57,423 nucleotides of DNA from an uncultured Selenomonadaceae bacterium (GTDB lineage Bacteria; Bacillota; Negativicutes; Selenomonadales; Selenomonadaceae): assembly GCA_905234235.1 (NCBI GenBank), contig CAJOHN010000008.1, positions 161,406 to 218,828 on the forward strand, read 5' to 3'. Below, one piece after another: positions 1-57,423 of the stretch. The translations under genes and the position numbers were made by a program. Within the stretch, counting starts at the first letter, position 1. Every line of letters starts with the position of its first letter. The notes under the pieces are model-generated. The model was not told the origin of the DNA and did no database searches. It was given only the letters and a program-made list of their open reading frames with translations.

Positions 1-1943
1 AAAAGTTCCCGCGCCTCCGTCAGCCCGCGATAGATTAAAAATTTTTCTGCCAATGCATTCTCTTTGCCGCCCAACGATATTTCCAAGCCCGATTCGTTTA
101 ATCTTAATCTGTCCGCGTCGTTCAATAAATTTTTTTCTCCGACTTTGCGCGGGAAATTTTTATCATCGAAACCTAAAACGAAAATCGCCCGCGAATTTTG
201 CAACGAATTTTGTTCAAACTGCGCGACCGTTACCTCGTCGAGTCCGGGCGGTATCAGCGACATTTCTAACGCCTCTAAGCCCTCCAAGATTATCGTTTCA
301 AATTCTCGCGCCGTTATTTTTTCTTCGCCGAGTGTGTCCGCCACTTGCTCCAATAAATTTATCACGTCGTCCCAAATTTTTAGATGTTCCCGCGAAAGTG
401 CCAAGTTCCCGCGAATTTCTTCCGCCTGCGACCAATCCGATAATTTTTCCGGCACGTCCAGTTCCTCCAAAAGTTTGAACAATGCCGTTGCCATTGCGAT
501 TATTTCTTTGGCCGAAGTTTTCACGCGCTCGGCGAATTTTATCAACGGTTCCGCGCAGATTTTTTTTATGCCGTTGATTTTCTCAAGGTATTCAAGCTCG
601 GCGGGAGTGGCAGGTTGAATCGGCGCGTCCAATGATTTCACTCGGCGATACTCCCAATTTTTTTGCCAATTCGCCGCGCTTTTTATCCCGAACTCAATCA
701 CGTAATTCTCCAGTAAGTCAACGTCCTCTTGCGCCACGTCGAAAAAACCCGTCCTTAAGCAACGGAAAATTGATTCACGTCGCCAACCGCGCAGAACTTC
801 CAACGCCGAACGAATCAGCTCCGCTAACGGGTGATGCGCCGCCGCTCGTTTCATGTCGATAAAGCGCGGTATCGCGTGGAGCTCGAATATCGATTTTATC
901 AGCGAAAAATATTGCTCGTCGCGTGCCAAAACTCCGATGTCGCGAAGACGATAATTTTTTTTCACGAGCCGTAAAATTTCTTGCGCGACTGCTTCCACTT
1001 CCGCCCGCCGATTCACCGCCTCAATTACTTTCAAACCCGTAACATCCGCAAATTTTTTTGGCTTATAATCGAAAAGTTTTTGCTCCAAAATTTTCAACGG
1101 CACGGATTTAAATCTGCGCGGAGTTTCAAGGCGCGTGATTCTGAACTCGACGCCGAGCTCCGCCGCCAAATTTTTTATCGTGTGGAAAGTTTTCGAGGCG
1201 CGATTAAAAATCCCAACCTCAGAAATATTTTCGCGGCTGTTTAAATCTGTATCCATCGGCAACGTGATGTGAACATTCCGCGCGCACGTGAATAATTTTT
1301 TTAAAAAGTTACGTTGTTGCGGGTCGAAGAAGATAAAGCCGTCGATAAAAATTTCCGCGTCCGCCAATGTCGCCGATTGTTCCATGAACTCCGTTGCCCG
1401 CTCCAATAAATTTTCGTCGTCAGTTAATTTGTCAGCCAACGCCGCCTTAAAATCCTCCGCGAAAAGTTTCAAATCTTGCAGTTTATCCTTCAGCTCGTCG
1501 ACTTCGATTTTATCTGCCGCCGCGTCCAATTTCTCCGCGTCTATCGAATAAATCCTAAGCTCTTTTAATTCCTCCGCTAAAATTTCTACGAAGCCCTGTT
1601 GCTTTGCCGCCCGTACAAAATATTTCAACTCGCCCGCCTTATCGCGCCGCAATAAAATTTTCCTCAGCAAAAGTCGCCGCCCGATTTCCGATATGCGCGG
1701 GACTAATCCTCCGCCGATTTCCTCTAAAATTTGTCGTGCAAAGCGATTGAAACTGTTCATGCGCGTATTGAACGCTCCGCCCGTTAAACTTGCCAATTCC
1801 AATTCTGCGCGGTAAGTTTGATACGCCGGCAGTAAAAAAATTATTTCTGTCTTAAGCGGCTCGCTGTCTAAAATTTTTTTGGCGCGTCGTAAGCACTCGA
1901 AAGTTTTGCCGACGCCCGCCCGTCCGATTATCATTTCTATCAT
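1..1943 (-). CDS. addB: AddB, helicase-nuclease subunit (C-terminal part outside window)
   Basis: Read on the minus strand, one open frame runs from ATG 1943 (GGGAGGG six bases upstream) to the left edge, giving 647 codons of an expected roughly 1100. The product begins MIEMIIGRAGVGKTFE, with the Walker A motif GRAGVGKT at residues 7-14, followed by a helicase-like segment containing IFIDGFIFFDPQQ (Walker B-like region), and LPMDTDL and VLGFDDKNFP further on. These match the AddB/RexB family, whose partner AddA forms the double-strand-break resection nuclease of Firmicutes. The C-terminal nuclease and most of the Fe-S cysteines would lie beyond position 1. AddA is not visible here and would be expected downstream, to the left. 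Four copies of the dispersed CTGCGCGG word lie inside this gene, in three different reading frames. Assignment is confident from motifs and length. Confidence 0.88.
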   Translation of the reverse strand, partial: MIEMIIGRAGVGKTFECLRRAKKILDSEPLKTEIIFLLPAYQTYRAELELASLTGGAFNTRMNSFNRFARQILEEIGGGLVPRISEIGRRLLLRKILLRRDKAGELKYFVRAAKQQGFVEILAEELKELRIYSIDAEKLDAAADKIEVDELKDKLQDLKLFAEDFKAALADKLTDDENLLERATEFMEQSATLADAEIFIDGFIFFDPQQRNFLKKLFTCARNVHITLPMDTDLNSRENISEVGIFNRASKTFHTIKNLAAELGVEFRITRLETPRRFKSVPLKILEQKLFDYKPKKFADVTGLKVIEAVNRRAEVEAVAQEILRLVKKNYRLRDIGVLARDEQYFSLIKSIFELHAIPRFIDMKRAAAHHPLAELIRSALEVLRGWRRESIFRCLRTGFFDVAQEDVDLLENYVIEFGIKSAANWQKNWEYRRVKSLDAPIQPATPAELEYLEKINGIKKICAEPLIKFAERVKTSAKEIIAMATALFKLLEELDVPEKLSDWSQAEEIRGNLALSREHLKIWDDVINLLEQVADTLGEEKITAREFETIILEGLEALEMSLIPPGLDEVTVAQFEQNSLQNSRAIFVLGFDDKNFPRKVGEKNLLNDADRLRLNESGLEISLGGKENALAEKFLIYRGLTEAREL

Positions 1944-2006
1944 GAAAAACCCTCCCGCTAATCATTATACAAAGAATTTCGGCTAAGTGGTAAAGATTTT
2001 TTTATG

Positions 2007-2015
2007 TGATATAAT
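2007..2015 (+). promoter_or_regulatory. Extended -10 promoter of the Hsp70-like gene
   Basis: TGATATAAT is a perfect TGn extended -10 hexamer with no good -35 upstream, which is usual for this class. Transcription would begin near 2021, which rules out the upstream GTG at 1987 as start and supports ATG 2035. Confidence 0.6.
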
Positions 2016-2034
2016 CTGCGCGGGTGATGAAATT

Positions 2035-4407
2035 ATGACGAAGATACTAACAAGCGTGAAGATTTCGGACGCGGATTTAAAGAATTTTGGCGACGCCGAA
2101 CAGCTGAAAACTTTCCTACTGAATTGCGACAAAGACCGCGCAGGGCTCGACCCTTACGACGAAAATATTTTGTTCGACCCGAATCGCGGGCATTGGGATT
2201 TATGGGACATCGACCAAGAAGACGGCACTGAAATTTCTCTCGGCGAAAATTTTGTAGCGCGCGACCCCGCAACCGACGTTTCAAGCGGCATCGTCGCTAT
2301 CGATTTCGGAACCAGCCGCACCGTCGTCGTCTACGAAAATGAACACTCACAAATTTTGCCGTTGCAAGTCGGGAGCGGCTCTTACAGTAACGGGGTTAAT
2401 TTTTCTGCCGATTACGAAAATCCGACGGTGATTCAGTTCATTGACATAGAAAGTTTTTTGAAGGCTTATTATTGGCGCGAGGGACGCCCGTTGACCAGTT
2501 GGGACGACGTAAAAATTTCACACGCGGCTTTTGAAAATTTAATCAACGGCGGCTCGGAGAAATTCTACTCGTTCTTGACTGACTTAAAATATTGGTGCGG
2601 CTCCAAAACTCAATTCATGCTCCGCGACGAAAAAAATTTCATAACGCAACTGGCTCCGTTCGCGGAGTTGGCGGAGGACGAAATAAATCCGCTGGAAATT
2701 TACGCGTATTATCTTGGGTTGTACATTAACAACATGCAACAGGAGAATCATATTTTTTTGAATTATATTTTGTCGTTCCCCGTGACGTATGAGAAAAGTG
2801 TTCGGGAGAAAATGCGGCTGTGCTTTGAACGCGGGCTGAAAAAATCTTTGCCGACGGCATTACTATCCAACGAAACGCTGATGAAAAAATTTTCCGTGAG
2901 AGAGGGCGCAAGTGAGGCGGCGGCTTACGCGATAACGGCTTTGCAAGAATACGGCTTCGACCCGGCGGGCGAGGAAGAAAATTATTATGCGGTGTTCGAT
3001 TTCGGCGGCGGCACGACTGATTTTGATTTCGGATTTATGCGCGAGGCGTCCAGCGACCGTTATGATTATTTGCTTGTGCATTTCGGGGAGAATGGCGACA
3101 GGACTTTAGGCGGTGAAAATCTTTTAAAGCTGTTGGCGTTCGAGATTTTTAGGGCGAATCAAGACCGTTTGTTGAGACCGGATGGCGGCGGGAAAATTCC
3201 ATTTACATGGGCGGCGGAGAAAAAAGATTTCGCGGGCTCGGAGGCTTTGATTAAAGATTCGCAAGAGGCTCATGCAAACATGCACGCGTTGATTGAAAAA
3301 ATTCGTCCCGTGTGGGAGGCTCCCGACTCCGACGCGGCAAAGGAAATTTTGGCGGGCGGATTTATAAAACTCAATCTTTTCCGCGACGATGGACAGCTTA
3401 TTGAAAATTTCAGTTTGGACGCGGGCATTGACTTGTTAAAAATTTTACGCGGCAGAATCAAGGCGGGCATAAATAATTTTTTCATTTCGATGAAGGAAGC
3501 CTTTGAAAAGAACAGTAAAAATTCTCTCCGCAAGATAAAGCCACTCCGCGAGATTAATGAAATTTCTATTTTTCTGGCGGGTAATTCGTCTAAGTCTAAG
3601 ATTGTCAACGAACTTTTTGCGGAATATCTTTTGCCGGTTGAGGACACACGGCTTGCGGCTGATGAAAATCCTTTTGCGAACGGACGACTTAAAAGCGGCT
3701 ACGAACTTAAAGACGATTATTTTATGCAACGCGGCAGTATTTATCGGCGCGACGAAAACGGCTTAGAAATTTGGCTCGGCGATATGGATAATTCTGACGA
3801 CCAGATTGTTTTAAGCGAGACCGTTAAGAAAATTCCCGTCGACCGCGCAGGCGAGAAATCTCCCGTACAAAATTTATTCGGTTTCGTGGGGAAGGCACCC
3901 GAATTTAAAATTTATCCCGCGCTCGGAACGGAGGCGGCTCACGAATTGCAAAAAGCTCGCGGCGTCGAGATTCGCACAGACTTGACGGCTCCGACGGGTA
4001 AAACGGGCGTTGCTTACGGCTTATTGTTAAGCAGGGCGGGCGGCAACGTTCAAACTAAACACATCACGCCCGACGCCTCCAAAACTCCGTTCAGTTGCTA
4101 CGTCGGCAGAAATAAAAAGCGCAAGTTCAAAACCGTCATCGACAGAAATACAAAATTTGACGTGTGGTATCCGTTCATCGACGCGGGCGACAGTTTCGAC
4201 ATTTTTTATACGAATTTGCCCGAAGCCGTTTCTAATCAAATGAACATTCAGAAGGCGAAGCGAATCACAATTAACCTTGACGAACCCGACGAAGATTTAA
4301 CGGTTTATATTCGCGCCGTGAAGTCGAACGTTATCGAGTATCAAATTGCGCACAGTGAAGATGAACTTTCCGACGAAAATATTTCCGAGCAGATTGAATT
4401 GAACTGA
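2035..4407 (+). CDS. Hsp70/actin-fold ATPase of unknown role
   Basis: The 790-residue product has the three signatures of the Hsp70/actin ATPase fold: phosphate-1 AIDFGTSRTVVVY (about residues 88-100), phosphate-2 VFDFGGGTTDFDFG (about 319-333) and adenosine motif IFLAGNSSKSKI (about 512-523). About 85 residues of unrecognised sequence, rich in Asp and Trp (WDLWDIDQEDG), precede the ATPase fold, and the region after about residue 540 is not a recognisable DnaK substrate-binding domain. No GrpE or DnaJ is nearby and the gene stands alone between its own promoter and a terminator, so it is not the housekeeping DnaK. Related solo Hsp70-like proteins are common but functionally undefined. ATG 2035 was chosen because a promoter -10 box overlaps the longer GTG frame. 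Confidence 0.75.
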   Translation: MTKILTSVKISDADLKNFGDAEQLKTFLLNCDKDRAGLDPYDENILFDPNRGHWDLWDIDQEDGTEISLGENFVARDPATDVSSGIVAIDFGTSRTVVVYENEHSQILPLQVGSGSYSNGVNFSADYENPTVIQFIDIESFLKAYYWREGRPLTSWDDVKISHAAFENLINGGSEKFYSFLTDLKYWCGSKTQFMLRDEKNFITQLAPFAELAEDEINPLEIYAYYLGLYINNMQQENHIFLNYILSFPVTYEKSVREKMRLCFERGLKKSLPTALLSNETLMKKFSVREGASEAAAYAITALQEYGFDPAGEEENYYAVFDFGGGTTDFDFGFMREASSDRYDYLLVHFGENGDRTLGGENLLKLLAFEIFRANQDRLLRPDGGGKIPFTWAAEKKDFAGSEALIKDSQEAHANMHALIEKIRPVWEAPDSDAAKEILAGGFIKLNLFRDDGQLIENFSLDAGIDLLKILRGRIKAGINNFFISMKEAFEKNSKNSLRKIKPLREINEISIFLAGNSSKSKIVNELFAEYLLPVEDTRLAADENPFANGRLKSGYELKDDYFMQRGSIYRRDENGLEIWLGDMDNSDDQIVLSETVKKIPVDRAGEKSPVQNLFGFVGKAPEFKIYPALGTEAAHELQKARGVEIRTDLTAPTGKTGVAYGLLLSRAGGNVQTKHITPDASKTPFSCYVGRNKKRKFKTVIDRNTKFDVWYPFIDAGDSFDIFYTNLPEAVSNQMNIQKAKRITINLDEPDEDLTVYIRAVKSNVIEYQIAHSEDELSDENISEQIELN

Positions 4408-4468: not shown

Positions 4469-7400
4469 TTACTTTAATGCAAGTGTGGAGCCGCTGATTT
4501 TGTAGGTGGAATTGTTGACGTGGAAAGTTGTTGCCGTGAAGTTTTTCAACGTTATGGAGTTACTGCTGTCAAACTTCAGCGTTACAGCCTTATTCTTTTT
4601 GCTGTAGGACGCCGTGAAGTCGATATTATCGAGCGTGAGCGTGTCATTATCGTCGAAGCCGATTATAACGTCTTTACCGTCGCCGTATTCATAAGAGAAA
4701 ATATCCGCGCCGGCGTTGCCCCAGAGTGAATCGTTACCTTTGCCTCCGATTAAAATATCATTGCCCGCACCGCCGTAAAGTTTATCATTACCTTTGCCAC
4801 CGAGAATCGAATCATTCCCCGCCATTCCGTAAAGCGTATCCTTGCCCGAACCGCCAATAATTGTGTTGTCAAATGCATTGCCCGTGATTTTTACCTTTTT
4901 AGTCCGCGCAGAAGCATCGGCGATCTCGTAAGCTGAGCCAAGCGTCACAGAAGATTTAGTTTTATTCGTCATGGTAAAGGTCGAAGCAGATTTTCCGGTC
5001 GAATCGTCGCTACCGCCGCCATAAACGGAAGACGTAGAATTATCGTTGAAATCAACTACAGTAATCTGTTTGCCCTTGCCGTTTTGGACAGTGATTGAAC
5101 CGTTGCCGACCGTCAAAACGACATCATTGCCGCTGATTGAGAAGGCAGTTATCGAGGCATTTTCTTCGGCGAGTTTAATTTTATCTTCACCCGCAACGTA
5201 ATCGCTGATAAAATCGTTGTCCGCCGTGTGAATGAAAACATCTTTGCCTTCGCCGCCCGTCAACGTATCATTACCCGTGCCGCCACAAATCGAATCGTCG
5301 CCCGCGTCGCCATTAATGAAGTCGTCGCCTGCGTCGCCATAAAGAACGTCAGCACCCTCGCCGCCATAAATTGTATCGTTGCCGGTGTTGCTGAAGATTG
5401 TATCATTACCTACGCCCGTCGAAATGGAATTCGCTTTTTTATTGCCGACAATCGTAACGTCACGAATCAAGGCGGTTGCATCGACATTCTTAACGGAAGA
5501 GTAATTTGTTAAGTCGAGCATGTCGTCGTTGAAATCTTTAGAAACGGTCATCAATGCGCCCTTAACCGAAACCGAAGAAGAACCGCTGCCGTAATTGTCT
5601 TGAGATACAGCCTTGCCTGAAGTGGCATAACCTGCGGAGCTTGACGTTGGATAATGTTCGGAGCTTTGCTTTGCAAGGTAGCGCAGGAACATGTAACCGC
5701 CCGCATAAGCAACGTTCGTGCCGGTGCCGGGAACTAAAGCTAAGGAATTCCTTAAATTATTCGCGTTGCCCGCCAAAGAATTTATGGTAGACGTTCTTTC
5801 ATCATCTATGCCGTGAGTTAATTCCGCCATGCCTTCCGAGATAAATTCCGGTAAATCAGCGAAATAATTAATGTTAGTCGCCATTACCGCATGCGTAAAT
5901 TCGTGCGCCAAAGTTCTATCCAAGTAGGCATTCGTAACTGAGCTCTCACCGTCTACATTGCCGGTCGGAATGCTGTTGTAGTAGCGCATGTTGACTTTCA
6001 TTCCAAGCTTGGTAGCCTTCCCTGCATTCGAGTAGTAATAGGGAGTAGAAGCCAATGTGTTGTTGTTCTCGTTGATAAAGCCAAAGTACATTTCCTTGAC
6101 TGTAGCGGAAGAGCTCGACGAGAATCCGAAATTGTTTCCATAAGACTGCGCGATAAGATTCAGTGCACCGCTTGCCCACCACGTTTGAAGGGCTTGCCAA
6201 ATATATCTCTGTGTGCTGTTCGTCAAACTGTTGTAGCTTATTTCGTACGCGTCATATGGTGTATAGAACTGCGCCAGTTTAATTGTCAAGCCGTTGGTTG
6301 TGAAGGAGTTGCCGGTGAAGGAATTAACCGCGCCGCTTTCCGGAACTATGCCGGAGGAAGTTTTTTGATAAGTGGAGCCGCCCGCATCGAAACCGGTTAT
6401 CGCGCCGGTGTCTGAGTTGCTTAAGTCAATGCCACAAGAATTTTTCAAGAAATTAGTTGCATTGCCCGTTGTCCTGCAATCGTCAACCATCTGATTAATC
6501 GCGGCACTGATATTGGAGAAATAACCGCCCGAAGCTACGGAGACTGCTTGATTGAGCGCGCTGATACCGGAATAAGTTGTCGTGTCTAAAGACTTCATAA
6601 ACTTTTTGATAACGTCTTGCTGACTGATAACGGCTGCCGGTGTGGTATCGGACGTTGACGACGGATAGATATTGACAGTTTTATTTTTCGCGCCAGCTAA
6701 TGTTATCTTGCCGCTGTTCCCGACTGTTACGACGACATCATTATTTACGGTTGATTTTGTCCAACTTGCGCCACCCGCGATTGTCAGCGAATCGTTAGAA
6801 CTCCAGTTATAAATGACATCGTTGCCGTCGCCCGAACTGTATTGATAGAGATGACTTGTAGCGGTGGAGCCGTAGATAGTATCGTTGCCCGTGCCGCCGC
6901 TGACAGTTAATTTGTCGCCGCTGAGACTGATTCTATCCGCGCCTGCACCGCCACTAACCGAATGCTCGTTGCCACCGGCGATAATTGTATCATCATCGTT
7001 ACCGCCACTGATCGTATTGCGCCAATAGGAACCTGTGAGACTGATTAAATCGTTACCGTCGTCGCCGTTGAGTTTTGAATTGGAATATCCGCCGCTGAGA
7101 GTATCTTTTCCGCTACCGGCATTAACAGTAACTTTATCAGCCCAGTTATAAATGGTGTCATTACCCGCGCCCACGTTGATTGTAACGTTGGTGCCGCTGT
7201 TATTGACTGTGTCCGCGTAAGCCGTGCCTGTCAAGAGGGTATTGGGGTTGGAATTGGAAATAAGCGTGCCTTTCGGCGTTGTGACCAAATTGATGCCGCC
7301 AACTATATTGATAAGCTTATCTGCGCCGCCACTCAAGGTAATTGCTCCGCCGCCAGATATGCTGACTACAACGTTAGAACTAACAGTCTCCTTTGAATAG

Positions 7401-9436: not shown

Positions 9437-9520
9437 AATCATCGCTCCTTTCTGCTAAAGAAAAACATTCCACATTCAGCTGTAAAGCCTCCTTCCAAGC
9501 ATGTATTTTTTTACGATTGA

Positions 9521-10385: not shown

Positions 10386-12236
10386 GATTAGTGCGCGAAT
10401 TGCATTGAGTACTGCGAGAATCATAACTCCGACGTCCGCGAAAATTGCCATCCACATATTCGCCAGCCCAATCGCGCCGAGTATCAAGCATAAAAATTTT
10501 ACGCCGAGTGCGAAGAAAATATTCTGCTTGACGATACCTAAACATTTACGCGAGATTTTAATTGCCTTAGAAATTTTTAGCGGGTCGTCATCCATTAACA
10601 CAACATCAGCCGCCTCAATTGCCGCGTCCGAACCTAAAGCTCCCATTGCAATTCCGACATCTGCGCGGCTCAAAACAGGCGCGTCGTTAATGCCGTCGCC
10701 GACGAACGCAACTTTGCCGTCAATCTGCGCGGACAAAATCTTTTCAAACTCGGAAACTTTATCGGCGGGCAAAAGTTCACTGCGATAATTTTTAATGCCG
10801 AGTTCCGCCGCAACTTTCGACGCAATCTTCTCACTGTCGCCCGTCAACATAAAAATATTTTCGACGCCTGCGCCTTCCATATCAGCAACGGCTTCTTTAG
10901 CGTGCGGCTTAATCGCATCGGAAATAACGACGTGCCCCGCGTATTCCCCATTAACCGCAACATGAATAATCGTGCCCGTCTTGCGGCAGGGAATCCATTT
11001 CGCGCCGACTTCCTCCATAAATTTTTCGTTGCCGACGCTGACAATCTGCCCGTTGACTTTCGCTCGAATGCCGCGCCCAGCAATTTCTTCAACAGCCTCA
11101 ACCGTGCAATCGTCGCGTTCATTCGGGTAAGCTTTTCTTAAAGAATTGGCTATTGGGTGCGTGGAATATCTCTCGACATGAGCGGCGAGGTGTAAAAGTT
11201 TTTCGGCGTCGAAGTTCAAATTCTTACTGTGAACGGCTTCGACTTCAAAGCTCCCTTGCGTCAACGTGCCGGTCTTATCCATGACGACGGTTTTAACTTT
11301 GGAAAGCGTCTCCAAAAAATTGGAGCCCTTAATCAAAATTCCCGCACGACTCGCGCCGCCGATACCCGCGAAGAAACTCAACGGAATACTTATCACCAAC
11401 GCGCACGGACAACTTATGACAAGGAAAATCAGCGCACGATAAAGCCAAGTGCTCCAATCGCCAAAAATTATCGGCGGAATTATCGCCAATGCAACCGCGC
11501 AGATTACAACGACGGGCGTATAAATTCTTGCGAACTTCGCGATAAAATCTTCGGACTTGGACTTGCGCGAACTTGCGTCTTCGACGAGCTCCAAAATTTT
11601 TGACGCGGTGGACTCCCCGAATTCTTTAGTCGTTCTGATTTTCAAGACGCCGTTTAAGTTTATGCAACCGCTCACGACCTCCGCACCGATCGAGACATCA
11701 CGCGGGAGGCTCTCACCCGTCAAAGCGATTGTGTTCAAAGTTGAATTGCCCTCGACAATCACGCCGTCAATCGGAATTTTTTCGCCGGGCTGAACAATTA
11801 TAATCGTGCCAATCTCAACCTCGTCGGGGTCAACTTGTTCAAGTCCGTTATCAGTTTCGACGTTGGCATAATCGGGGCGAATGTCCATGAGCTCAGAAAT
11901 ATTTTTGCGGCTTTTGCCAACCGCGTAGCTTTGAAACCACTCGCCGATTTGATAGAATAACATAACAGCGATAGCCTCGTTATAATCGCCGTCGTCGTGA
12001 ACAGCTAATGCAAATGCTCCGACCGTTGCAATCGTCATAAGCAAACTTTCATCGAGGGCGCGCAGATTTTTCAGCCCGTGAAATGCTTTGAGTAAAATAT
12101 CATAGCTGACAATCAGATACGGCACGAGGTACAGCAATAATCTTTGGACGCCGGAAATTTCTACTAAATTCAACGCAATCAGCAATGCCGCCGCGATTAA
12201 AATTCGGATTAGATTTTTTTTCTGCTTGGCGTTCAT
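10374..12236 (-). CDS. P1B-type heavy-metal ATPase (Zn/Cd/Pb type), lacking its own HMA domain
   Basis: The 620-residue protein has the full P1B-ATPase set in order: ALTGES actuator motif, membrane CPC motif (SCPCALVISIP), DKTGTLTQ phosphorylation site, the HP locus YSTHPIA, TGDSEKIASKVA, and GDGINDAPVL. The last helices hold an Asp in FADVGV, typical of zinc and cadmium exporters. It has no N-terminal metal-binding domain; that domain is encoded separately just upstream. ATG 12236 overlaps the HMA gene's TGA as ATGA, the usual sign of translational coupling; the longer TTG frame to 12251 would put the ribosome site directly against the start. The role is probably export of Zn, Cd or Pb across the inner membrane. 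The exact metal cannot be read from sequence alone. Confidence 0.92.
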   Translation of the reverse strand: MNAKQKKNLIRILIAAALLIALNLVEISGVQRLLLYLVPYLIVSYDILLKAFHGLKNLRALDESLLMTIATVGAFALAVHDDGDYNEAIAVMLFYQIGEWFQSYAVGKSRKNISELMDIRPDYANVETDNGLEQVDPDEVEIGTIIIVQPGEKIPIDGVIVEGNSTLNTIALTGESLPRDVSIGAEVVSGCINLNGVLKIRTTKEFGESTASKILELVEDASSRKSKSEDFIAKFARIYTPVVVICAVALAIIPPIIFGDWSTWLYRALIFLVISCPCALVISIPLSFFAGIGGASRAGILIKGSNFLETLSKVKTVVMDKTGTLTQGSFEVEAVHSKNLNFDAEKLLHLAAHVERYSTHPIANSLRKAYPNERDDCTVEAVEEIAGRGIRAKVNGQIVSVGNEKFMEEVGAKWIPCRKTGTIIHVAVNGEYAGHVVISDAIKPHAKEAVADMEGAGVENIFMLTGDSEKIASKVAAELGIKNYRSELLPADKVSEFEKILSAQIDGKVAFVGDGINDAPVLSRADVGIAMGALGSDAAIEAADVVLMDDDPLKISKAIKISRKCLGIVKQNIFFALGVKFLCLILGAIGLANMWMAIFADVGVMILAVLNAIRALILPK

Positions 12237-20970: not shown

Positions 20971-21003
20971 AAATTTTTTGTACAAAAGGAGTTGACAAAA
21001 TCA

Positions 21004-33220: not shown

Positions 33221-33254
33221 ATCCCCTGCAACCTGCGCGGGGGATAATTTTTTT
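33221..33254 (+). terminator. Intrinsic terminator containing a CTGCGCGG copy
   Basis: ATCCCC pairs with GGGGAT around a loop of 13 bases, then a run of seven T. One copy of the dispersed word (33233-33240) forms part of the loop and right arm. Confidence 0.75.
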
Positions 33255-36044: not shown

Positions 36045-36090
36045 GATAATTCCTCCCGCAATTCTCTGAACAATTTCATCTTACAAGGCA

Positions 36091-36096
36091 ATTATA
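36091..36096 (-). promoter_or_regulatory. Likely -10 box for the ADP-ribosylglycohydrolase fusion
   Basis: TATAAT on the minus strand lies about 45 bases before ATG 36044. No convincing -35 was found at the right distance. Confidence 0.45.
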
Positions 36097-36129
36097 CAGG
36101 CGAGAAAAATTTTTTGGTCACTTTGAAAG

Positions 36130-41878: not shown

Positions 41879-41907
41879 TTTACACCGCGCAGATAAAATG
41901 ATACAAT
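41879..41907 (+). promoter_or_regulatory. Promoter of the chemoreceptor genes
   Basis: TTTACA (41879-41884), a 17-bp spacer and TACAAT (41902-41907) read rightward. The first eight spacer bases are a copy of CCGCGCAG. Confidence 0.7.
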
Positions 41908-45340: not shown

Positions 45341-46696
45341 ATGAATGACGTTGCGATTAAAGCCGAACACCTTACCAAAATTTATAAGATCTACGAACAC
45401 GAAATCGACAGGATTAAGGAAACTTTTCATCCCTTCCATAAACGCTACAGCAAAGATTTTTACGCGCTTAACGACATTTCCTTTGAAATTAGACGCGGCG
45501 AAAATATCGGGCTTGTCGGCAAAAACGGCGCAGGTAAATCTACTTTGTTAAAAATTATTACGGGCGTCCTCACTCCCAGCGGCGGTACTCTCGAAGTCAA
45601 CGGGCGTATCGCCTCGCTGTTGGAGTTGGGCGCGGGCTTCAATCCCGATATGACCGGCGTTGAAAATATTTACATGAACGGCTTGCTTATCGGGCACAAT
45701 CGCGACGTTATGGACGCCAAAATCGACGATATTATTGCCTTCGCCGACATTGGAGAATTTATCAATCAGCCCGTCAAAACTTATTCGTCTGGGATGTTCG
45801 CGAGGCTGGCTTTTGCGGTTAATGCGTTTGTCGAGCCGGATATTTTAATTGTTGATGAGGCATTAAGTGTCGGCGACGCGTTTTTTCAAAGCAAATGTAT
45901 TGATAAGATGCGTTCGATGATTCAAGGCGGCGTGACGGTTATTTTTGTCAGCCACGATACTTTTGCCGTCAAGAATCTTTGCCAACGCGCTTTCCTCATG
46001 AAGTCGGGGAAAATTTTAATGGACGCACCCGCTAAAGATGTCGTCGAAGTTTATCGCAATATGCTCCTCGAATCTCGCGGCGAATTGACTGCGGAACAAT
46101 CTCAGCGTCAAAATGCCCTCGTTAATAATCTGCGCGGCGAATACGATAAAACTTTTGCCGAAGAAAAAATTTCCGTTGAAAGTTTGGAACGCGGCAAAGA
46201 TACTTTCGATAAAAATGCAACCTATCAACGTATCGGCGATAAACGCGCAGTCTTCGATAACGTTCAGCTCCTAAACTTAAACGGCGAACTCATCAGCGAA
46301 GTTATTTTTGGGCAGGAAGTTGTTTTGCGTATGATTGTACGTTTCCAAACCGACGTTGAACTTCTTGGAATGGGCTATCACATCAGGAACGCAACCGGTA
46401 TCGATTTAATCTACACGGATTCGCGCTTCAACGACACCAAAGCTATTTTCGACGCAAAGGCGGGCGAGGTTTACGTTATTGATTGGCGGTTTAAAGTTGA
46501 GTTGCGCCAAGAACTTTACGATATTGCCTGCGTTATCTCTACGCCGCTCGACGAAACTTTAAGCTCCGTTGAAATGTGCGACTTTATCCCGTGCGCCGTT
46601 CAGTTTAACGTCGTCAGTCCTAATCCTTATCTCAGCTTGCCCGGCGGCTACGTTCATTGGCATAACGATCTTAAAATTTGCCGCGTTGATAAATAA
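45341..46696 (+). CDS. Wzt/TagH-like ABC ATPase with carbohydrate-recognition C-terminus
   Basis: The 451-residue protein has an ABC domain with Walker A GLVGKNGAGKST, signature YSSGMFARLAFA, Walker B PDILIVDEAL and H-loop FVSHDT, typical of O-antigen and teichoic-acid exporters. Its N-terminus (EHLTKIYKIYEHEIDRIKE) is standard for the family. A linker leads to a C-terminal beta-sandwich (about residues 300-445, VRFQTDVELLGMGYHIRNAT) like the Wzt domain that selects the glycan. The partner permease gene is not adjacent. There is no clear ribosome site before ATG 45341, which is three bases after the receptor stop, so translation may be coupled. It probably exports a surface glycan. Confidence 0.88.
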   Translation: MNDVAIKAEHLTKIYKIYEHEIDRIKETFHPFHKRYSKDFYALNDISFEIRRGENIGLVGKNGAGKSTLLKIITGVLTPSGGTLEVNGRIASLLELGAGFNPDMTGVENIYMNGLLIGHNRDVMDAKIDDIIAFADIGEFINQPVKTYSSGMFARLAFAVNAFVEPDILIVDEALSVGDAFFQSKCIDKMRSMIQGGVTVIFVSHDTFAVKNLCQRAFLMKSGKILMDAPAKDVVEVYRNMLLESRGELTAEQSQRQNALVNNLRGEYDKTFAEEKISVESLERGKDTFDKNATYQRIGDKRAVFDNVQLLNLNGELISEVIFGQEVVLRMIVRFQTDVELLGMGYHIRNATGIDLIYTDSRFNDTKAIFDAKAGEVYVIDWRFKVELRQELYDIACVISTPLDETLSSVEMCDFIPCAVQFNVVSPNPYLSLPGGYVHWHNDLKICRVDK

Positions 46697-46745: not shown

Positions 46746-48023
46746 GTGGAGACTTCTGAAGTTGAAAAGTTTAACCTAAAAAATTTTCTCTCGGCAAAGG
46801 GTGCGGCTATCGCGGCGGCTTCCGTAGCAGTCGTGGGGCTCGGCACTCTCGCTATGTCGAGTTCGGTCGCCGATGGCAATACTATCGTCACGGGCGTCCG
46901 CGCTGATGAGCACCAACTCAGCGGATTAGATAAATTCGCCGCAGAAAAAGTGTTCACCGACATTGCCGCGCAGAAAATTCATCCGCTAACCTTCCGCTAT
47001 GAGGGCGAAACTTTTGAAATCACGCCCGAAGAAATCAATTTAACTCCGCTCGTCGATAAAGCCGCTCAAGAAGCTTTAAATTACGGACGCGGCGGAACTG
47101 CCATTGGCAATTTTAACGAGCAAATGAAGTGTATGCTTAACGGACGCAACGTTCATCTCACCGCAAGTTTTGATTCAACTCTCCTCGACGAGAAACTTAA
47201 CGACATTGCCGCGCAGATTAACCGTGACCCTGTTAATGCCGTCGTTGAATTTGCTTCGGGCGGCGCGATTGAAAAAATCCCCGGCGTTATCGGCAAGAAA
47301 CTTAACACCGAACAAATCGCCGAGAATTTGCGCGACCCTCTGACTACTTTAAATTTGCCGAATAATACGATTGAACTCGTGCCCGATGACATTCAGCCGT
47401 TCGTGACGACGGAAGACATTGCGGGCATTGATTCGGTTCTCGGCACTTACAGCACTTATTATTATCCCGGCGACAGAGGCGATAACATTTGGCTCGCCGC
47501 CAATTCCATTTCGCACAAACTTGTTAAGAGCAGTTGGACTTTTTCTTTCAATGATACGGTCGGCGAACGCACTTGGGGCAATGGTTACAAAGTCGCGGGC
47601 GTTATAATTAACGGGCGTCCTGCTGAGGATTACGGCGGCGGCGTCTGCCAAGTCAGCTCCACGCTCTATAACGCTGTTTTACTCGCGGGGCTTACTCCCA
47701 CTGAACGCACGCCACATTTTTTCCAATCAACTTACATTGCGCCCGGTCGCGACGCTACTGTTGCTGACGGGCAGATTGATTTCAAATTCCGCAACGACTT
47801 CCCGCACAATGTTTATCTTATCGCCGAAGCTTACGGCTCGACGCTGAGCGTTTACGTTCTCGGAACTAAAGCAGATTTGGGCGGCGCGGATATTGCCATT
47901 GAACGCGAAGGCTCGGATATGTCGCCGTCGATTTATCGCGTATGGTACAGTGGCAATGATGTTATTCGCAGTGAATTTTTACACACTGATGTTTACGAGG
48001 TGCCTAAGCCCAGACAAGATTAA
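46746..48023 (+). CDS. VanW-family exported protein
   Basis: The 425-residue protein has an N-terminal membrane anchor (residues 18-40). A PG-binding-type domain follows (FTDIAAQKIHPLTFRYEGETFEI, repeated weakly), then the VanW domain with FSFNDTVGERTWGNGYK, EDYGGGVCQVSSTLYNAVL and FRNDFPHNVYLIAEA. VanW proteins occur in Firmicutes and their molecular role, probably at the cell wall, is unproven. GTG 46746 has GGAGG nine bases upstream and its own promoter. It is the first gene of a run including mnmA. Confidence 0.9.
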   Translation: METSEVEKFNLKNFLSAKGAAIAAASVAVVGLGTLAMSSSVADGNTIVTGVRADEHQLSGLDKFAAEKVFTDIAAQKIHPLTFRYEGETFEITPEEINLTPLVDKAAQEALNYGRGGTAIGNFNEQMKCMLNGRNVHLTASFDSTLLDEKLNDIAAQINRDPVNAVVEFASGGAIEKIPGVIGKKLNTEQIAENLRDPLTTLNLPNNTIELVPDDIQPFVTTEDIAGIDSVLGTYSTYYYPGDRGDNIWLAANSISHKLVKSSWTFSFNDTVGERTWGNGYKVAGVIINGRPAEDYGGGVCQVSSTLYNAVLLAGLTPTERTPHFFQSTYIAPGRDATVADGQIDFKFRNDFPHNVYLIAEAYGSTLSVYVLGTKADLGGADIAIEREGSDMSPSIYRVWYSGNDVIRSEFLHTDVYEVPKPRQD

Positions 48024-48038: not shown

Positions 48039-49076
48039 TTGATTAAGAAGGTCGCCGTAGCGATGAGCGGAGGTGTCGACAGCTCATTGACTGCGGCATT
48101 TTTGTTAGAAAAAAATTTTGAAGTCTTTGGCGTGACGATGCTCCTTAGTGACGACGAGAAAAATATTTATGATGCTCGCCGCGTTTGTGAACACTTGAGT
48201 ATAAAGCATTACGTCGCCGATTTCAGAAATATTTTCCGTGCCAACGTTGAGGATTATTTTGTTGCTGAATATCTGCGCGGCAAAACTCCTAATCCTTGTG
48301 TTCGTTGCAATAAAAAAATAAAGTTCGGCGCGCTGTTCGATTTGGCTGAAGATTTGGGCGCGGATTTTTTGGCGACGGGGCATTATGCGCGGATTACTTT
48401 CGAGGACGGGCGATTCAAATTAAAAAAAGCCGTCGACATTAAGAAAGACCAATCCTACGTTCTGTATAACTTGACGCTGGAAAAACTTTCAAAAATTTTA
48501 TTGCCGCTGGGCGAATTTTCTAAGGTTGAAACGCGCAGACTTGCCGCAGAAAAAAATTTGCCCGTCGCTCACAAGCCCGACAGTCAAGAAATTTGCTTCA
48601 TTCCCAACGACGATTATAAAAGTTTTATCGCTAATCGCGAGCCGTCCGCGCAGGCTTTAAAGTCGGGCGTGATTGTCGATTCAAGCGGAAAGATTCTCGG
48701 CAGTCATAACGGCGTTGCGAATTACACAATCGGTCAGCGTAAAGGCTTGGGGATTGCCGCGCCGCAACCGCTCTATGTCACTAAGCTTGACGTTGATAAT
48801 AAAAAAGTCGTCGTCGATACGAACGAAAAACTTTTCAGTTACAGTTTGATTGCCGGCGACGTTCACTGGATTTATAAGCCGCAACTTCCAAAAGTTTTAA
48901 CGGCTAAGATTCGCTACGGAGCAAAAGTTTCGGCGTGCAACGTTGCGGAGGCGGAAAATTATTTATCGGTGACTTTTACTGAGCCGCAACGCGCAATTAC
49001 TCCCGGTCAATCGATAGTTTTCTACGACGGCGACGAAGTTTTAGGCGGCGCGATTATTAATGAGGTGATGACATGA
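48039..49076 (+). CDS. mnmA: tRNA-specific 2-thiouridylase
   Basis: The 345-residue enzyme begins MIKKVAVAMSGGVDSSLTAA (PP-loop), has NPCVRCNKKIKFG with the first catalytic Cys, GHYARI, and SQEICFIPNDDY with the second catalytic Cys. It thiolates U34 of Lys, Glu and Gln tRNAs. TTG 48039 is preferred over GTG 48030 because GGAG is then eight bases upstream and the product begins at the family's usual start. The stop overlaps the next ATG by four bases. Confidence 0.95.
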   Translation: MIKKVAVAMSGGVDSSLTAAFLLEKNFEVFGVTMLLSDDEKNIYDARRVCEHLSIKHYVADFRNIFRANVEDYFVAEYLRGKTPNPCVRCNKKIKFGALFDLAEDLGADFLATGHYARITFEDGRFKLKKAVDIKKDQSYVLYNLTLEKLSKILLPLGEFSKVETRRLAAEKNLPVAHKPDSQEICFIPNDDYKSFIANREPSAQALKSGVIVDSSGKILGSHNGVANYTIGQRKGLGIAAPQPLYVTKLDVDNKKVVVDTNEKLFSYSLIAGDVHWIYKPQLPKVLTAKIRYGAKVSACNVAEAENYLSVTFTEPQRAITPGQSIVFYDGDEVLGGAIINEVMT

Positions 49077-49885: not shown

Positions 49886-50640
49886 GAAATTTTTTATTAA
49901 TGTTGCTGGCGTTGCTGATGATGTCCGCGCAGGTTTCAGCGGCTAAGATTGACGCCTATCAAAAAATTTTGGAGAGCGGGCGGTACACGATTCGCTACGA
50001 CAATTTGACGCCCGCGCACCGCATAACTAATCGCGATGTTGTCAAGCTGTACGGCAAGAATGGTTTGGCGGTTGAAGGCAATGATTTTTTCTTGAACAGA
50101 CCTTTGCGCGGCGTGATTATCGGCGATGGCGAAAATCGTTACGAGGAAATCGGCTACGAAAATTTTTTCCAATGTCGGCTTGTCAAGGGCGGCGAGAATT
50201 TTATTTTCACGCGTTATCCCGCGAAGAATGGCGGCGTTGAATATTTCGGCGAGAAGAAGGGCAAAGTTGCGGCTAACCCGCGCAATTATCTTGTCGAACT
50301 TTTAAGCGGCGAGAGTTTTGGCGACTCGAATTTTACCGAGATGATGACGGCGATTATCAGCGACAGCAAAAAAAATTCCGCGCAGAAAAAATATAAATTC
50401 GTGACGAGCGGCGAACTTGATAGTGGTTTGACTTACGAGGATTTCAGTTGTCGTGACGGCGAGAATGTCAGCGCGATTCGTTATTATTTTGACGGCGACA
50501 CGCTTAAGAAAATTGCTTTTGCGGCTTCGATTGACGGCGAGTTTCGTAAATGTATCGTAAAAATTTTGGCGTTCACCGGCGAGCCCGAACAAAATCTTTT
50601 GAGGTTGCCGAGCGGCTTGGCAGACGTTACGCGGAGGTAA
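49882..50640 (+). CDS. Exported protein of unknown function (paralogue B)
   Basis: The 252-residue product has a signal peptide (LLALLMMSAQVSA) that is nearly the same as in the preceding gene. The mature protein begins AKIDAYQKILESGRYTIRYD, matching the paralogue's start. The rest is beta-rich with few shared residues (YFGEKKGKV, TYEDFSCRDGENVSAIRYYFDGD). The ATG overlaps the previous stop (ATGA), implying co-translation and similar dosage. No family is recognised. Being between an anchor protein operon and outer-membrane genes, it is probably periplasmic or outer-membrane associated. Confidence 0.7.
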   Translation: MRNFLLMLLALLMMSAQVSAAKIDAYQKILESGRYTIRYDNLTPAHRITNRDVVKLYGKNGLAVEGNDFFLNRPLRGVIIGDGENRYEEIGYENFFQCRLVKGGENFIFTRYPAKNGGVEYFGEKKGKVAANPRNYLVELLSGESFGDSNFTEMMTAIISDSKKNSAQKKYKFVTSGELDSGLTYEDFSCRDGENVSAIRYYFDGDTLKKIAFAASIDGEFRKCIVKILAFTGEPEQNLLRLPSGLADVTRR

Positions 50641-50645: not shown

Positions 50646-51455
50646 ATGAAGAAAATTTTTGCTATCATATTGGCGACGGCGATAATAAATTTTTCGTCAA
50701 TTTGTTCAGCGGCTCCGACGTGCATTCTGATGAAGTTCACGGACGACACGCGCTTTGACAAGATTGAATCGGCGGAATCGTTATCGGATTTGGTAATGGA
50801 GAAACTTATCGACAGCGGGAAGTTTAATTTTTCGGAGACACGCCCGCTTGATGAGGACATTGAGATAAAACTTTACAACGAGAATCTGCGCGACTTGAAT
50901 TATTTAAACGCGGCGATTGAGACGGGCGACTTCAATCCGCTTTTCGAGGGTGAAGGCTTCGACGAACGCAAAGCTCAATCAATCGCCTCCGCGCAGGTCG
51001 GACAGATAATCACGCCCGAAATTACTCAAGCAATCGGCGCGGCGCATAATGCCGAATACTTGATTCAGGGCACGATTATAAATTTGGGCACGGGAGCTTG
51101 GTGGAGTGACGACTACGCGGTTTTATCGAGTGCACTCAATCTTGCGAGCTCGTTGATGAGTTCGGCGATACCACTCGGCGGACTGGGCGATTTAATCGGC
51201 GGCATCGACGTCAGCAAGATAGGCATCGGCGTCCGGATCGACATTCGGATTATCAAGGCAGAGACAGGGGAGGTGATTTGGAGCAAGCGCGTCGTCGGTA
51301 TCAATGAACAAGTCAATTTAAGTCTCGGATTAATAACGATTGGCAGCAGGAAACTCAACAATAATCTTTACGCAAAGGCGATGGACAAGGCGGCTCAAAA
51401 AATCGCAGACGCAATTATCGCGGATATGACGGCAGGTAAATTGTTTATCAAATGA
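50646..51455 (+). CDS. CsgG-like exported protein
   Basis: The 269-residue product has a signal peptide (FAIILATAIINFSSICSA). The mature part starts with a TolB-N-like strand (TCILMKFTDD), has AHNAEYLIQGTIINLGTG and ends with VRIDIRIIKAETGEVIWSKRVVG and KAAQKIADAIIADM, the strand and helix order of CsgG/FlgT-type outer-membrane assembly proteins. A hydrophobic Ser/Leu-rich loop (ALNLASSLMSSAIPLGGLGDLIGG) could be a membrane-inserting hairpin as in the CsgG pore. There is no lipobox Cys at the cleavage point apart from CSA, which precedes it. ATG 50646 follows GGAGG. It lies 13 bases before an autotransporter. Confidence 0.6.
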   Translation: MKKIFAIILATAIINFSSICSAAPTCILMKFTDDTRFDKIESAESLSDLVMEKLIDSGKFNFSETRPLDEDIEIKLYNENLRDLNYLNAAIETGDFNPLFEGEGFDERKAQSIASAQVGQIITPEITQAIGAAHNAEYLIQGTIINLGTGAWWSDDYAVLSSALNLASSLMSSAIPLGGLGDLIGGIDVSKIGIGVRIDIRIIKAETGEVIWSKRVVGINEQVNLSLGLITIGSRKLNNNLYAKAMDKAAQKIADAIIADMTAGKLFIK

Positions 51456-53589: not shown

Positions 53590-53619
53590 TTGAAAGACAA
53601 TCTGCCGCTGTGATAAAAT
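53590..53619 (+). promoter_or_regulatory. Possible promoter of the second autotransporter, overlapping a terminator
   Basis: TTGAAA (53590-53595), an 18-bp spacer and TAAAAT (53614-53619) precede the gene. The terminator stem of the upstream gene lies within the spacer and -10 region. Confidence 0.45.
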
Positions 53620-53635
53620 AGCGGCAGTTTTATTT
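53602..53635 (+). terminator. Intrinsic terminator between the autotransporters
   Basis: CTGCCGCT and AGCGGCAG form a perfect 8-bp stem around a 10-base loop, followed by TTTTATTTT. Confidence 0.85.
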
Positions 53636-53664
53636 TGGGCAGTATGGCAAGGAGGTTTGTAAAG

Positions 53665-55809: not shown

Positions 55810-55848
55810 GGTTAGACGTTCTGCAAATTTTTAAGGGAGGGAGTTTAA

Positions 55849-57423
55849 GTGGACAATAACCAGAATAATACTCTGTTAAGTGGTTCGGATGATAATGATT
55901 CGATAACCAATCGCGGCTCGAACGTCACAATCGCGGCGGGTGCGGGCGACGATACCGTTTATAACAGTGGCGACAATGTTTCCATAAACGGCGGCGACGG
56001 CAACGATTTAATTACTAACATTAACGAAGATATTCCAATCGTGATAGGCAACGTTCCTTACGACAAAAAAATTTATGCCGACATCAATATTCCGGGCAAA
56101 GACGATAGCGTTGTCGGTAACGGCTTTAAGGCTACGCTTATGGGCGGCGCGGGCGATGATTCCATTGAAAACAACGGCGATAATGCTCTGATTGACGGCG
56201 GCACGGGCAACAATTTAATCAGCTTGATTGGCGGCGCGGGAACTACCGTTAATGCCGCGCAGGGTGCTGATACGATAAGAGTTGTTGACGCAACGGCGAG
56301 AAATTTTGCTGTAACGGGCTTCGGAACAGATGATTTAATTCGCTTGTCGACAACGCCGAACAAATTGGAATTGATAGACGGCGGGATAATAGCGGGCAAC
56401 GTCACGATAAACGGGATAAGTTCAATCGCAAGCGGCGGAAATTTTTGGCAGACGGATTCGGAAAGTATAAGCTACCAAAGTTCACAAACATCCGGCGCGA
56501 GCTTAACTGGCAACGAGATTCGATTAGCAGGGGCAACGTCAGCGGATACCCTCTTCACGATAACAGGTTTGAACTCGACGGTTGGGGTATCGCTCAATGA
56601 TAAGGAAGTCATATTGACGAACGCGGCATTGGCGAACCGTGCACTGGACTACACGTTACAATTAGCGAGCGACGTTGACACGTTAGCAGAAAATCTCACC
56701 GGTTGGCAAACGTTGACGGGCGGTAATGTAGCATATTTTGAGGGCGGCGTCGGCGAATATTACTCGTTAAGTTCCGATAAGCAGAGTGTGACTTATACCG
56801 ATTCGACGACGGGCAATAACAGAGTTGAGTTCAGCGGCGTTCAAGGGGAGCCGACGCTTGGGAACAACACAGTCAGTTTGACAGCAGAAAATTTCGCGAG
56901 CGATGTTAAAGTCGAGAGCAACGCAGGGAAATATCAATTTGCGCTGAGCGGGGAGATTGATAAGAGTTTTACGGGGACGCGTGGCAACGATTTAATTTAC
57001 AACGGCGGCAATGGCGTTACGATAAACACTGCGCAAGGTAAGGATACGATAAGAGTTGTTGACGCGACGGCGAGAAATTTTGCTGTAACGGGCTTCGGAA
57101 CAGATGATTTAATTCGCTTGTCGACAACGCCGGACAAATTGGAATTGATAGACGGCGGGATAATAGCGGGCAACGTCACGATAAACGGGGTAAGTTCAAT
57201 CGCAAGCGGCGGAAATTTTTGGCAGACGTATTCGGAAAGTATAAGCTACCAAAGTTCACAAACATCCGGCGCGAGCTTAAGCGGCAACGAGATTCGATTA
57301 GCAGGGGCAACATCAGCAGATACGCTCTTCACGATAACAGGTTTGAACTCGACGGTTGGGGTATCGCTCAATGATAAGGAAGTCATATTGACGAACGCGG
57401 CATTGGCGAACCGTGCACTGGAC
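55849..57423 (+). CDS. RTX-like repeat surface protein (3' end outside window)
   Basis: GTG 55849 follows AAGGGAGGG and opens 525 codons to the right edge. The product starts MDNNQNNTLLSGSDDNDS and carries RTX-type turns (IAAGAGDDTVYN, INGGDGNDLITN, LMGGAGDDSIEN, NGGNGVTINTAQGKDTI). Between them lies a large module of 258 residues containing VTGFGTDDLIRLSTTP and SISYQSSQTSGAS, whose second copy is nearly identical and is cut by the window edge. Like the big RTX protein on the left it lacks a Sec signal. It lies 40 bases after the autotransporter in the same direction and may share its transcript. Confidence 0.8.
   Translation, partial: MDNNQNNTLLSGSDDNDSITNRGSNVTIAAGAGDDTVYNSGDNVSINGGDGNDLITNINEDIPIVIGNVPYDKKIYADINIPGKDDSVVGNGFKATLMGGAGDDSIENNGDNALIDGGTGNNLISLIGGAGTTVNAAQGADTIRVVDATARNFAVTGFGTDDLIRLSTTPNKLELIDGGIIAGNVTINGISSIASGGNFWQTDSESISYQSSQTSGASLTGNEIRLAGATSADTLFTITGLNSTVGVSLNDKEVILTNAALANRALDYTLQLASDVDTLAENLTGWQTLTGGNVAYFEGGVGEYYSLSSDKQSVTYTDSTTGNNRVEFSGVQGEPTLGNNTVSLTAENFASDVKVESNAGKYQFALSGEIDKSFTGTRGNDLIYNGGNGVTINTAQGKDTIRVVDATARNFAVTGFGTDDLIRLSTTPDKLELIDGGIIAGNVTINGVSSIASGGNFWQTYSESISYQSSQTSGASLSGNEIRLAGATSADTLFTITGLNSTVGVSLNDKEVILTNAALANRALD
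56271..56649 (+). repeat. Near-identical direct repeat, first copy
   Basis: This segment recurs at 57045-57423, an offset of 774 bp (258 codons, in frame). I count only a handful of single-base differences over 379 compared bases. Confidence 0.9.
57045..57423 (+). repeat. Near-identical direct repeat, second copy (cut by window end)
   Basis: Second copy of the 774-bp-period module. It starts TACGATAAGAGTTGTTGACG and is still matching at the last base of the window, so the full repeat is longer. Confidence 0.9.

Follow-up and report, generated by a model that had tools for sequence, protein, structure and literature searches.

An abundant, unoriented eight-base word with two dialects as a probable DNA uptake sequence in a Quinella-group bacterium

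The window analysed here is a stretch of 57,423 nucleotides from an uncultured Selenomonadaceae bacterium (assembly GCA_905234235.1, contig CAJOHN010000008.1, positions 161,406 to 218,828), and our subject is an eight-base word, CTGCGCGG, that recurs along it on both strands. An initial annotation had counted 51 copies, 23 forward and 28 reverse, and likened them to a DNA uptake sequence. We reproduced that count exactly in the 57.4 kb, with the first copy at 551-558 and the last at 56255-56262, and dinucleotide shuffles of the window give a mean of 3.23 (sd 1.84, largest 7; 100 shuffles). The extended form AATCTGCGCGG is present 18 times, where a third-order Markov model expects 0.11.

The copies are all exact matches. 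A frame at 3-1943 on the minus strand, which runs off the window start and reads by eye as AddB-like, carries four of them, at 551..558 (-), 787..794 (-), 1114..1121 (+) and 1805..1812 (+), and its translation contains all three of the readings (ICAE, VLRG and TPRR) that had been reported from it. Further copies lie at 2016..2023 (+), 2136..2143 (-), 3843..3850 (-) and 4904..4911 (-), the last being the sole one in a 5 kb RTX-repeat gene, and then at 10661..10668 (+), 10725..10732 (+), 11495..11502 (-), 12625..12632 (-), 13020..13027 (+), 16049..16056 (+), 16416..16423 (-), 16823..16830 (-), 19456..19463 (+) and 19713..19720 (+). Seven fall in a U32 peptidase gene (23478-25775), at 23556..23563 (+), 23621..23628 (+), 23988..23995 (+), 24303..24310 (-), 24715..24722 (-), 25367..25374 (+) and 25606..25613 (-). 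Beyond it are copies at 27631..27638 (-), 28963..28970 (+), 29596..29603 (+), 30854..30861 (-), 33233..33240 (+), 34349..34356 (-), 35451..35458 (+), 37155..37162 (+), 37317..37324 (+), 37484..37491 (-), 38801..38808 (+), 39309..39316 (-) and 39638..39645 (-). The secretin gene described below holds one at 40051..40058 (+), and the remainder are at 41348..41355 (-), 41885..41892 (-), 43104..43111 (-), 46130..46137 (+), 46966..46973 (-), 47209..47216 (-), 48273..48280 (+), 48646..48653 (-), 49925..49932 (-), 50378..50385 (-), 50989..50996 (-) and 56255..56262 (-).

The genome that contains the window (G000 hereafter) is a draft of 2,148,753 bases in 46 contigs, 85.67% complete, and is a member of a genus-level group containing Quinella (Selenomonadales, metagenome-assembled genomes from the ruminant gut). 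A PilC profile matched 54 loci in named genomes; five of them are distant, and the other 49 belong to metagenome-assembled genomes of Selenomonadaceae or Selenomonadales, mostly of ruminant gut origin where the source is stated and with Quinella sp. 1Q5, 1Q7 and 2Q5 among them. It holds 2,007 copies of CTGCGCGG (1,022 forward and 985 reverse), or 0.93 per kb, and the same letters read backwards are found 278 times (145 and 133). The Markov comparison proposed with the initial annotation places the count far above the third-order expectation: in 444 kb CTGCGCGG is the top-ranked 8-mer, with 438 copies against 24.4, an 18-fold excess. Under a fifth-order model, into which parts of the word are themselves absorbed, the expectation is 169. 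Alignment of 436 copies gives aaAAtCTGCGCGG. The position before the word is T in 62%, C in 26%, A in 11% and G in 0% of these copies, positions -2 and -3 are A-rich, and the consensus with this upstream preference (aaAAt) is AATCTGCGCGG. Upstream AT richness ranks 2nd among 219 GC-rich control words in G000 and 35th among 98 in G004, a relative introduced below. Single-mismatch neighbours of the core are mostly near background, with weak exceptions where the last base is A or T (about 2-fold) or the second base is G (about 2.5-fold, 298 against 121) or A (about 1.7-fold). Past a few bases the flanks carry little information, which argues that the copies were not spread by transposition.

A G stands directly before the word in only 1 of 800 copies. 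We rejected receptor specificity as the reason, because GCWGC is itself avoided (GCTGC 241 times against 1,770 expected), and restriction avoidance of GCWGC may explain the missing G. Restriction-type words are extremely avoided in the 834 kb sample of G000 described below: CCGCGG occurs 2 times against 1,103 expected and GGCC 96 against 7,070, and the RGCGCY words, GATATC (6 against 455) and CCATGG (2 against 132) are avoided as well. This avoidance is mostly weaker in G004, and it suggests that many restriction systems act on the genus.

The initial annotation had held that codon bias does not explain the word, and synonymous-codon shuffles bear this out. In 716 open reading frames (ORFs) of at least 100 aa from 834 kb, called as longest ORFs with no trained gene finder, CTGCGCGG occurs 745 times, against 48.9 when codons are shuffled genome-wide and 60.7 when they are shuffled within each gene (30 shuffles each). 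The coding copies (n=742) occupy all six phases, with 205, 160, 128, 124, 88 and 37 copies. Copies had also been placed in promoter and terminator regions. Copies outside the called ORFs do exist (58 of 800), but at 0.87 per kb, against 0.97 per kb inside, they do not amount to an association with such elements as a pattern.

Orientation and spacing were assessed in 15 stretches totalling 834 kb, or 39% of the genome, with the draft contigs oriented by GC skew. The strands are balanced at 389 against 411 copies (heterogeneity chi-square 5.0, 15 degrees of freedom, p 0.99), with no strand bias in any of the 15 stretches and no KOPS-type polarity towards the terminus. Three long stretches have positive GC skew, and in these the presumed leading strand carries 174 of 373 copies, a share of 0.47 (95% confidence interval 0.41-0.52), which differs from a Chi-like share of 0.75 at p = 2e-31. 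Counted by 10-kb windows, the G-rich strand carries 378 copies and the opposite strand 410 (p 0.27). The earlier statement that the two orientations are balanced, unlike those of Chi or KOPS, thus stands after the leading-strand test that had been set beforehand. An apparent one-sided orientation past 68 kb of contig C1 proved to be a listing artefact when the DNA was read directly. The copies also repel one another at short range: 17 gaps are no longer than 60 bp where random placement gives 44.8, and 41 are no longer than 100 bp where it gives 73.3. When 33 eight-mers of comparable abundance are ranked by how strongly their copies are spaced out, the top three are all fragments of CTGCGCGG.

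Foreign origin of the stretches that lack the word has partial support. Some word deserts are foreign-looking, among them type I restriction-modification genes on contig C15 and RTX-repeat genes, and the RTX-repeat genes taken together hold fewer copies of the word than expected (16 sites against 39.5). A scan of 10 desert proteins also turned up, in other deserts, flagellar genes along with a tRNA synthetase and a phosphoglycerate mutase. The C15 stretch, at about 34568-40000, encodes HsdM and HsdS, has a GC content of 0.40 and is word-free, which is consistent with recent acquisition. As a separate observation, six proteins have in common an N-terminal F-x-F-(D/H)-LQRF motif, and three of them carry RTX repeats. 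Their loci include 4469-9442 (-) in the window as well as places on contigs C3, C15 and C29, and the motif may be a signal for export or targeting that they share.

We compared G000 with stretches of 19 genomes or loci, using GC-rich 8-mers in the same alignments as controls. Genomes with the CTGCGCGG dialect are called GG here, and those with a second dialect, CTGCGCGA, are called GA. As the initial annotation had proposed, related genomes were compared, and word sites are kept above controls in most GG species. The fractions of GG-species copies matched in G000 are 12/16 in G017, 15/19 in G012, 19/30 in G010 and 6/11 in G022 (controls 0.28, 0.29, 0.21 and 0.22). In the reverse direction, the same four species keep 12/25, 15/29, 19/33 and 6/18 of the G000 copies (controls 0.23, 0.30, 0.30 and 0.21). 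Even the distant GG species G023, at 67% nucleotide identity, keeps 5 of 21 (control 0.06). None are kept in G013 (0/26), G008 (0/9), G003 (0/10) or G007 (0/15), where controls of 0.03-0.07 are too low to inform. In the U32 peptidase gene five of the seven sites recur in the same column and orientation in 5-9 of 13 clade members, G000 included: 23556..23563 in seven, 23621..23628 in six, 24715..24722 in five, 25367..25374 in eight and 25606..25613 in nine. The other two, 23988..23995 and 24303..24310, are private to G000 among the genomes compared. On the tree of this gene G013 and G008, which are almost free of both words, form a pair.

Within the genus, CTGCGCGG exceeds 1,000 copies in 10 of 36 relatives and CTGCGCGA does so in 6 of 36. 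G004 and G006 hold 2,206 and 2,335 copies of CTGCGCGA and only 123 and 170 of CTGCGCGG; G021 is mixed, with 752 of CTGCGCGG and 796 of CTGCGCGA; and G013 (3 and 11 copies) and G008 (5 and 5) are almost word-free. A 440 kb sample of G004 has 557 copies of CTGCGCGA against 33 expected, balanced between strands (283 and 274), and 23 of CTGCGCGG against 32 expected. No third dialect was found in the stretches read from low-density relatives. Five GA genomes cluster on a 31-row PilC tree, from which G006 was left out since its pilC is split; two changes of dialect are needed, and 62% of bootstrap trees give one origin. Among sites of the PilC region, 224 of 299 pairwise cells show a GA site kept between GA species (control 0.20; the cells are not independent). 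As an observation on G006 itself, this GA-rich genome, listed as 99% complete, has a split pilC (L155, L212) and an interrupted U32 peptidase gene (L238), which reflect either sequencing error or recent decay. Outside the genus the word fades: in a class sample of 150 genomes, the 147 from other genera reach at most 0.25 copies per kb against 0.93 in G000, the highest being G083 with 529 copies in 2.1 Mb (control 313). No comparable word of their own was recognised in ten class relatives, of which 10-40 kb each were read, so that a rarer word, or one lying elsewhere in those genomes, would be missed. The top words of G052 resemble local repeats.

A comparison of G000 with G004 shows that the dialect switched in place. 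The alignment covers 125 orthologous ORFs (119 kb, 67% identity) and 128 sites, with 2 more on gaps. G004 keeps the first seven bases at 21 of the 128, and 20 of these end in A and one in G. Control words with their first seven bases kept retain the last base in 1,485 of 2,004 cases (74%). Put as a rate, G-to-A change with seven bases kept affects 15.6% of the G000 sites, against 1.6% among control words with a final G. Of the 17 sites of the window that were compared, four are switched, those starting at 1805 (in addB), 23556, 25606 and 27631; at 1805..1812 and 27631..27638 the orthologous place in G004 reads CTGCGCGA, and the two U32 gene sites have the GA word in the same place and orientation. 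Turnover is large, with neither word in G004 at 107 of the 128 G000 sites and neither word in G000 at 152 of the 182 G004 sites. The demonstration of switching in place rests on this one GA species.

The initial annotation had drawn attention to a secretin in the window, and the gene is real. The product of 39754..41223 (-) is a PilQ-like type IV pilus secretin (PF00263, E 1.8e-49; TIGR02515 PilQ at 226 bits, below the cut-off of 284), likely the outer-membrane pore of an uptake machine. Adjoining it, 41224..41802 (-) encodes a 192-aa protein with one N-terminal hydrophobic stretch and no Pfam match, which by its position would be PilP-like. Elsewhere in the genome are a PilB-like ATPase on contig C15, PilT (above its model cut-off) and PilC on C29, ComEC at C8:64707, ComEA at C5:49710 and DprA at C18:51005, along with two more ATPases on C13 that look Tad-type from their neighbouring genes. 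The check for comEA, comEC and minor pilins suggested at the outset thus yielded ComEA, ComEC and a FimU-like candidate minor pilin.

That candidate heads a group of four pilin-like genes at C29:30032-31950, downstream of pilC and separated from it by an FtsE-like gene. A Pfam N_methyl search had found no pilin in G000 and one match over the cut-off in 9 genomes. By tblastn, relatives of the first three pilins are present in the GA genomes G004, G006 and G035, the GG genome G023 and the word-free G013; relatives of the fourth were found in G004 and G023 and not in the short stretches of G006, G035 and G013. The first pilin (C29:30032-30496) matches no Pfam family. Its predicted fold (mean pLDDT 86) has the minor pilin FimU as its best PDB match (Foldseek probability 1.00, TM 0.57/0.63, E 0.012), and no match reaches E <=0.001. 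Its Gly-Arg pair is invariant and GRxR is found in 20 of 25 aligned sequences, the second Arg being missing in L167, L171, L173, L188 and L274. A GRxR-type motif has been tied to DNA binding in FimT (excerpt of PMC8897410). The GA species G004, G006 and G035 have a pilin tail RG(S/T)YExPK, a feature confounded with phylogeny. Loss of GRxR was considered as a cause of low word density, since the low-density genomes G031 and G033 have GRMQ in its place, and was dropped because the higher-count G024 and G023 depart from the motif too. ComP is the receptor for the DNA uptake sequence (DUS) of Neisseriaceae. By analogy with it and with ComN/PpdA, a minor pilin predicted to be the receptor for the uptake signal sequence (USS; 2025 paper), we propose the FimU/FimT-like product of C29:30032-30496 as a candidate receptor for the word. 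ComP is named in the Neisseriaceae DUS literature (excerpt of PMC3630211).

Abundance, lack of polarity, dialects, conservation and competence genes all support the uptake-like reading put forward by the initial annotation, and we put at roughly three in four the probability that CTGCGCGG serves this Quinella-group bacterium as its DNA uptake sequence, which would make it the third to have evolved independently and the first outside Proteobacteria. The word shows the distributional hallmarks of uptake sequences that were tested, except inverted pairs, which are not a defining one. We infer that the pilus takes up DNA and prefers the word. A minor pilin at the pilus tip would bind double-stranded DNA bearing the word, PilT-driven retraction would draw that DNA through the PilQ-like secretin, ComEA and ComEC would bring one strand in, and DprA and RecA would recombine it. 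If word-bearing DNA were imported more often, alleles that gain the word would be copied more often, and copies would build up in either orientation, to a density near one per kb, at any place where the encoded protein allows them. A second copy near a first would add no gain. A shift of receptor specificity in part of the genus may then have changed the favoured last base from G to A, with some old sites rewritten in place.

Several results weigh against this interpretation. ComEC, ComEA and DprA are also found across the class in relatives that lack the word, so that they demonstrate capacity and not specificity. As many as 20 of the 36 same-genus relatives, many of them incomplete, exceed 1,000 copies of neither word, and two relatives show low retention, G005 keeping 0 of 16 sites (control 0.32) and G015 4 of 16 (control 0.27), from which we conclude that the word was thinned or lost in some relatives. 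No swap was seen in the small stretches of four other GA genomes (G006, G034, G025 and G019), in 40 comparisons over 24 distinct G000 sites. The PilC region, in which G004 itself has 0 of 9 swapped, accounts for seven of the 24, and at the 17 others about 3 swaps would be expected at the G004 rate. In the PilC region as a whole, 0 of 592 pairwise cells show a swap in place. In the GG species G023, the 8 sites with seven bases conserved end in G five times and in A three times. Coding copies are slightly commoner on the strand opposite the gene (402 against 340, p 0.025), and overall spacing regularity is weak (coefficient of variation 0.954 against 1.001, p 0.09). Close pairs show no excess of inverted ones (3 of the 17 within 60 bp), and a terminator role for inverted pairs was looked for and not found. 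Lastly, AT richness 3' of the word stands out only marginally from that of control words (rank 14 of 219 in G000 and 10 of 98 in G004), and we dropped 3' AT tracts like those of Haemophilus as evidence.

The main rival holds that CTGCGCGG is an unpolarised Chi site, at which AddAB would stop degradation and load RecA, so that the word marks self DNA for repair. We regard this as unlikely, although it is the alternative that deserves most attention. An AddB-like frame stands at the window start, and because Chi words vary by lineage the dialects alone do not exclude it. We know of no reason to expect Chi sites to repel one another at short range. Such repulsion does fit uptake sequences (excerpt of PMC1626085). 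Excerpts of PMC5959072 bear on both sides of the question: known AddAB/RexAB Chi words (AGCGG, GCGCGTG and GAAGCGG) are GC-rich and of a similar style, and Pseudomonas Chi has near-equal strand counts, so polarity is not universal, but E. coli Chi is 75% on the leading strand, against a share of 0.47 for CTGCGCGG, and occurs once per 4.5 kb at 4-8-fold excess, against 0.93 per kb and 18-fold here.

The remaining explanations appear much less probable. A binding site for a chromosome-organising or segregation protein (KOPS-, Noc- or SlmA-like) would look alike, being a scattered, conserved word recognised by a protein, and conservation across species fits any binding site. Sites for Noc, SlmA and ParB are, however, far fewer than the roughly 2,000 copies found here; FtsK-type sites are polar and these are not; the copies are spread evenly inside genes; and it is difficult to see how an essential segregation protein could change its dialect across a whole genome, so we think this very improbable. 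Slightly less credible still is a product of mutation or modification, such as a HIP1-type or methylation hot spot, with the GA dialect arising where a methylated C of the opposite strand is deaminated. The change from GG to GA is indeed the transition expected from deamination of 5-methylcytosine, and strong avoidance of other GC palindromes, CCGCGG above all, makes it probable that modification systems act. HIP1 is a palindromic iterated word, whereas CTGCGCGG and its complement disagree at 2 of the 8 positions and the extension of the word is asymmetric. If the GA word were a relic of deamination it should be decaying, but it stands at full density in G004 and its sites are kept between GA species; and restriction targets should be avoided, as the restriction-type palindromes strongly are, whereas this word is multiplied 18-fold. 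Least probable of all, to the point that we give it hardly any weight, is an excess that arises from codon usage, amino acid preference or a small mobile repeat. Some phases are favoured, with 205 of the 742 coding copies in one and 37 in the rarest, yet all six are used, synonymous-codon shuffles give 48.9 or 60.7 copies against 745, and the uninformative flanks speak against transposition.

Two other features of the window stand apart from the word. The ORF at 20992-23481 (+), whose 829-aa product has no Pfam or NCBIfam match, contains at 21783-22575 a 36-bp coding repeat array with the words CACAAGGACA and CTGATTGAAT. At 46746-48023 (+) there is a weak, partial VanW-like match (57 bits against model cut-offs of 365), which implies no resistance role.

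There is a wider scenario that we favour with somewhat less assurance. Self-specific uptake would have evolved for the third time in the Quinella group, outside Proteobacteria, with a FimU/FimT-like minor pilin as its receptor. Within a single genus the tag would have been gained, thinned or lost and would have switched dialect by a change of its last base from G to A, so that the receptor and the genomic tags, which number in the thousands, coevolve over short distances and raise barriers to mating between rumen species. With an independent third case, in a diderm Firmicute, what had been a curiosity of two proteobacterial families would become an outcome that evolution has repeated. Joint change in a receptor and its many tags can be studied well in this genus, which has two dialects, genomes of intermediate type and apparent losses. 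Quinella is uncultured; if the reading is right, it is predicted to be naturally transformable, and its DNA tag is named. Uptake sequences are known from only two bacterial families (2025 paper), and among the matches listed from the open-access PMC literature none describes one in this group. Within the same class, Veillonella parvula is naturally competent, and in an excerpt of PMC5397411 a DUS is deemed an unlikely cause of its bias for DNA source.

Published uptake sequences occur at about one copy per kb, with no orientation bias, somewhat regular spacing and some inverted pairs (excerpt of PMC1626085). The USS of Pasteurellaceae (Hin type AAGTGCGGT, Apl type ACAAGCGGT) resembles the present word in its density of about one per kb, its lack of orientation, its more even than random spacing and its subclade dialects (excerpt of PMC1626085). 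The words themselves are unrelated and belong to different phyla, the dialects here lie one base apart, the 3' AT segments are marginal here, and inverted pairs are not in excess. The DUS of Neisseriaceae is likewise a short word with about 1,900 copies per genome, phylogeny-following dialects and CTG in its core (excerpt of PMC3630211), the shared CTG probably being a coincidence. In contrast to that system, the ComP-type receptor is here a candidate only, inverted pairs are not enriched, and some same-genus relatives (G013 and G008) are almost free of copies. The Chi sites of AddAB/RexAB are similarly GC-rich, over-represented and lineage-specific, and an AddB-like gene lies in the window, but CTGCGCGG lacks leading-strand bias, is denser and shows spacing repulsion. 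Among the FimT/FimU/GspH minor pilins, the candidate receptor differs in having neither a Pfam match nor a Foldseek match at E <=0.001, and its sequence-specific binding is putative; it resembles them in a fold closest to FimU, in GRxR in 20 of 25 sequences and in its place at the head of a four-pilin cluster.

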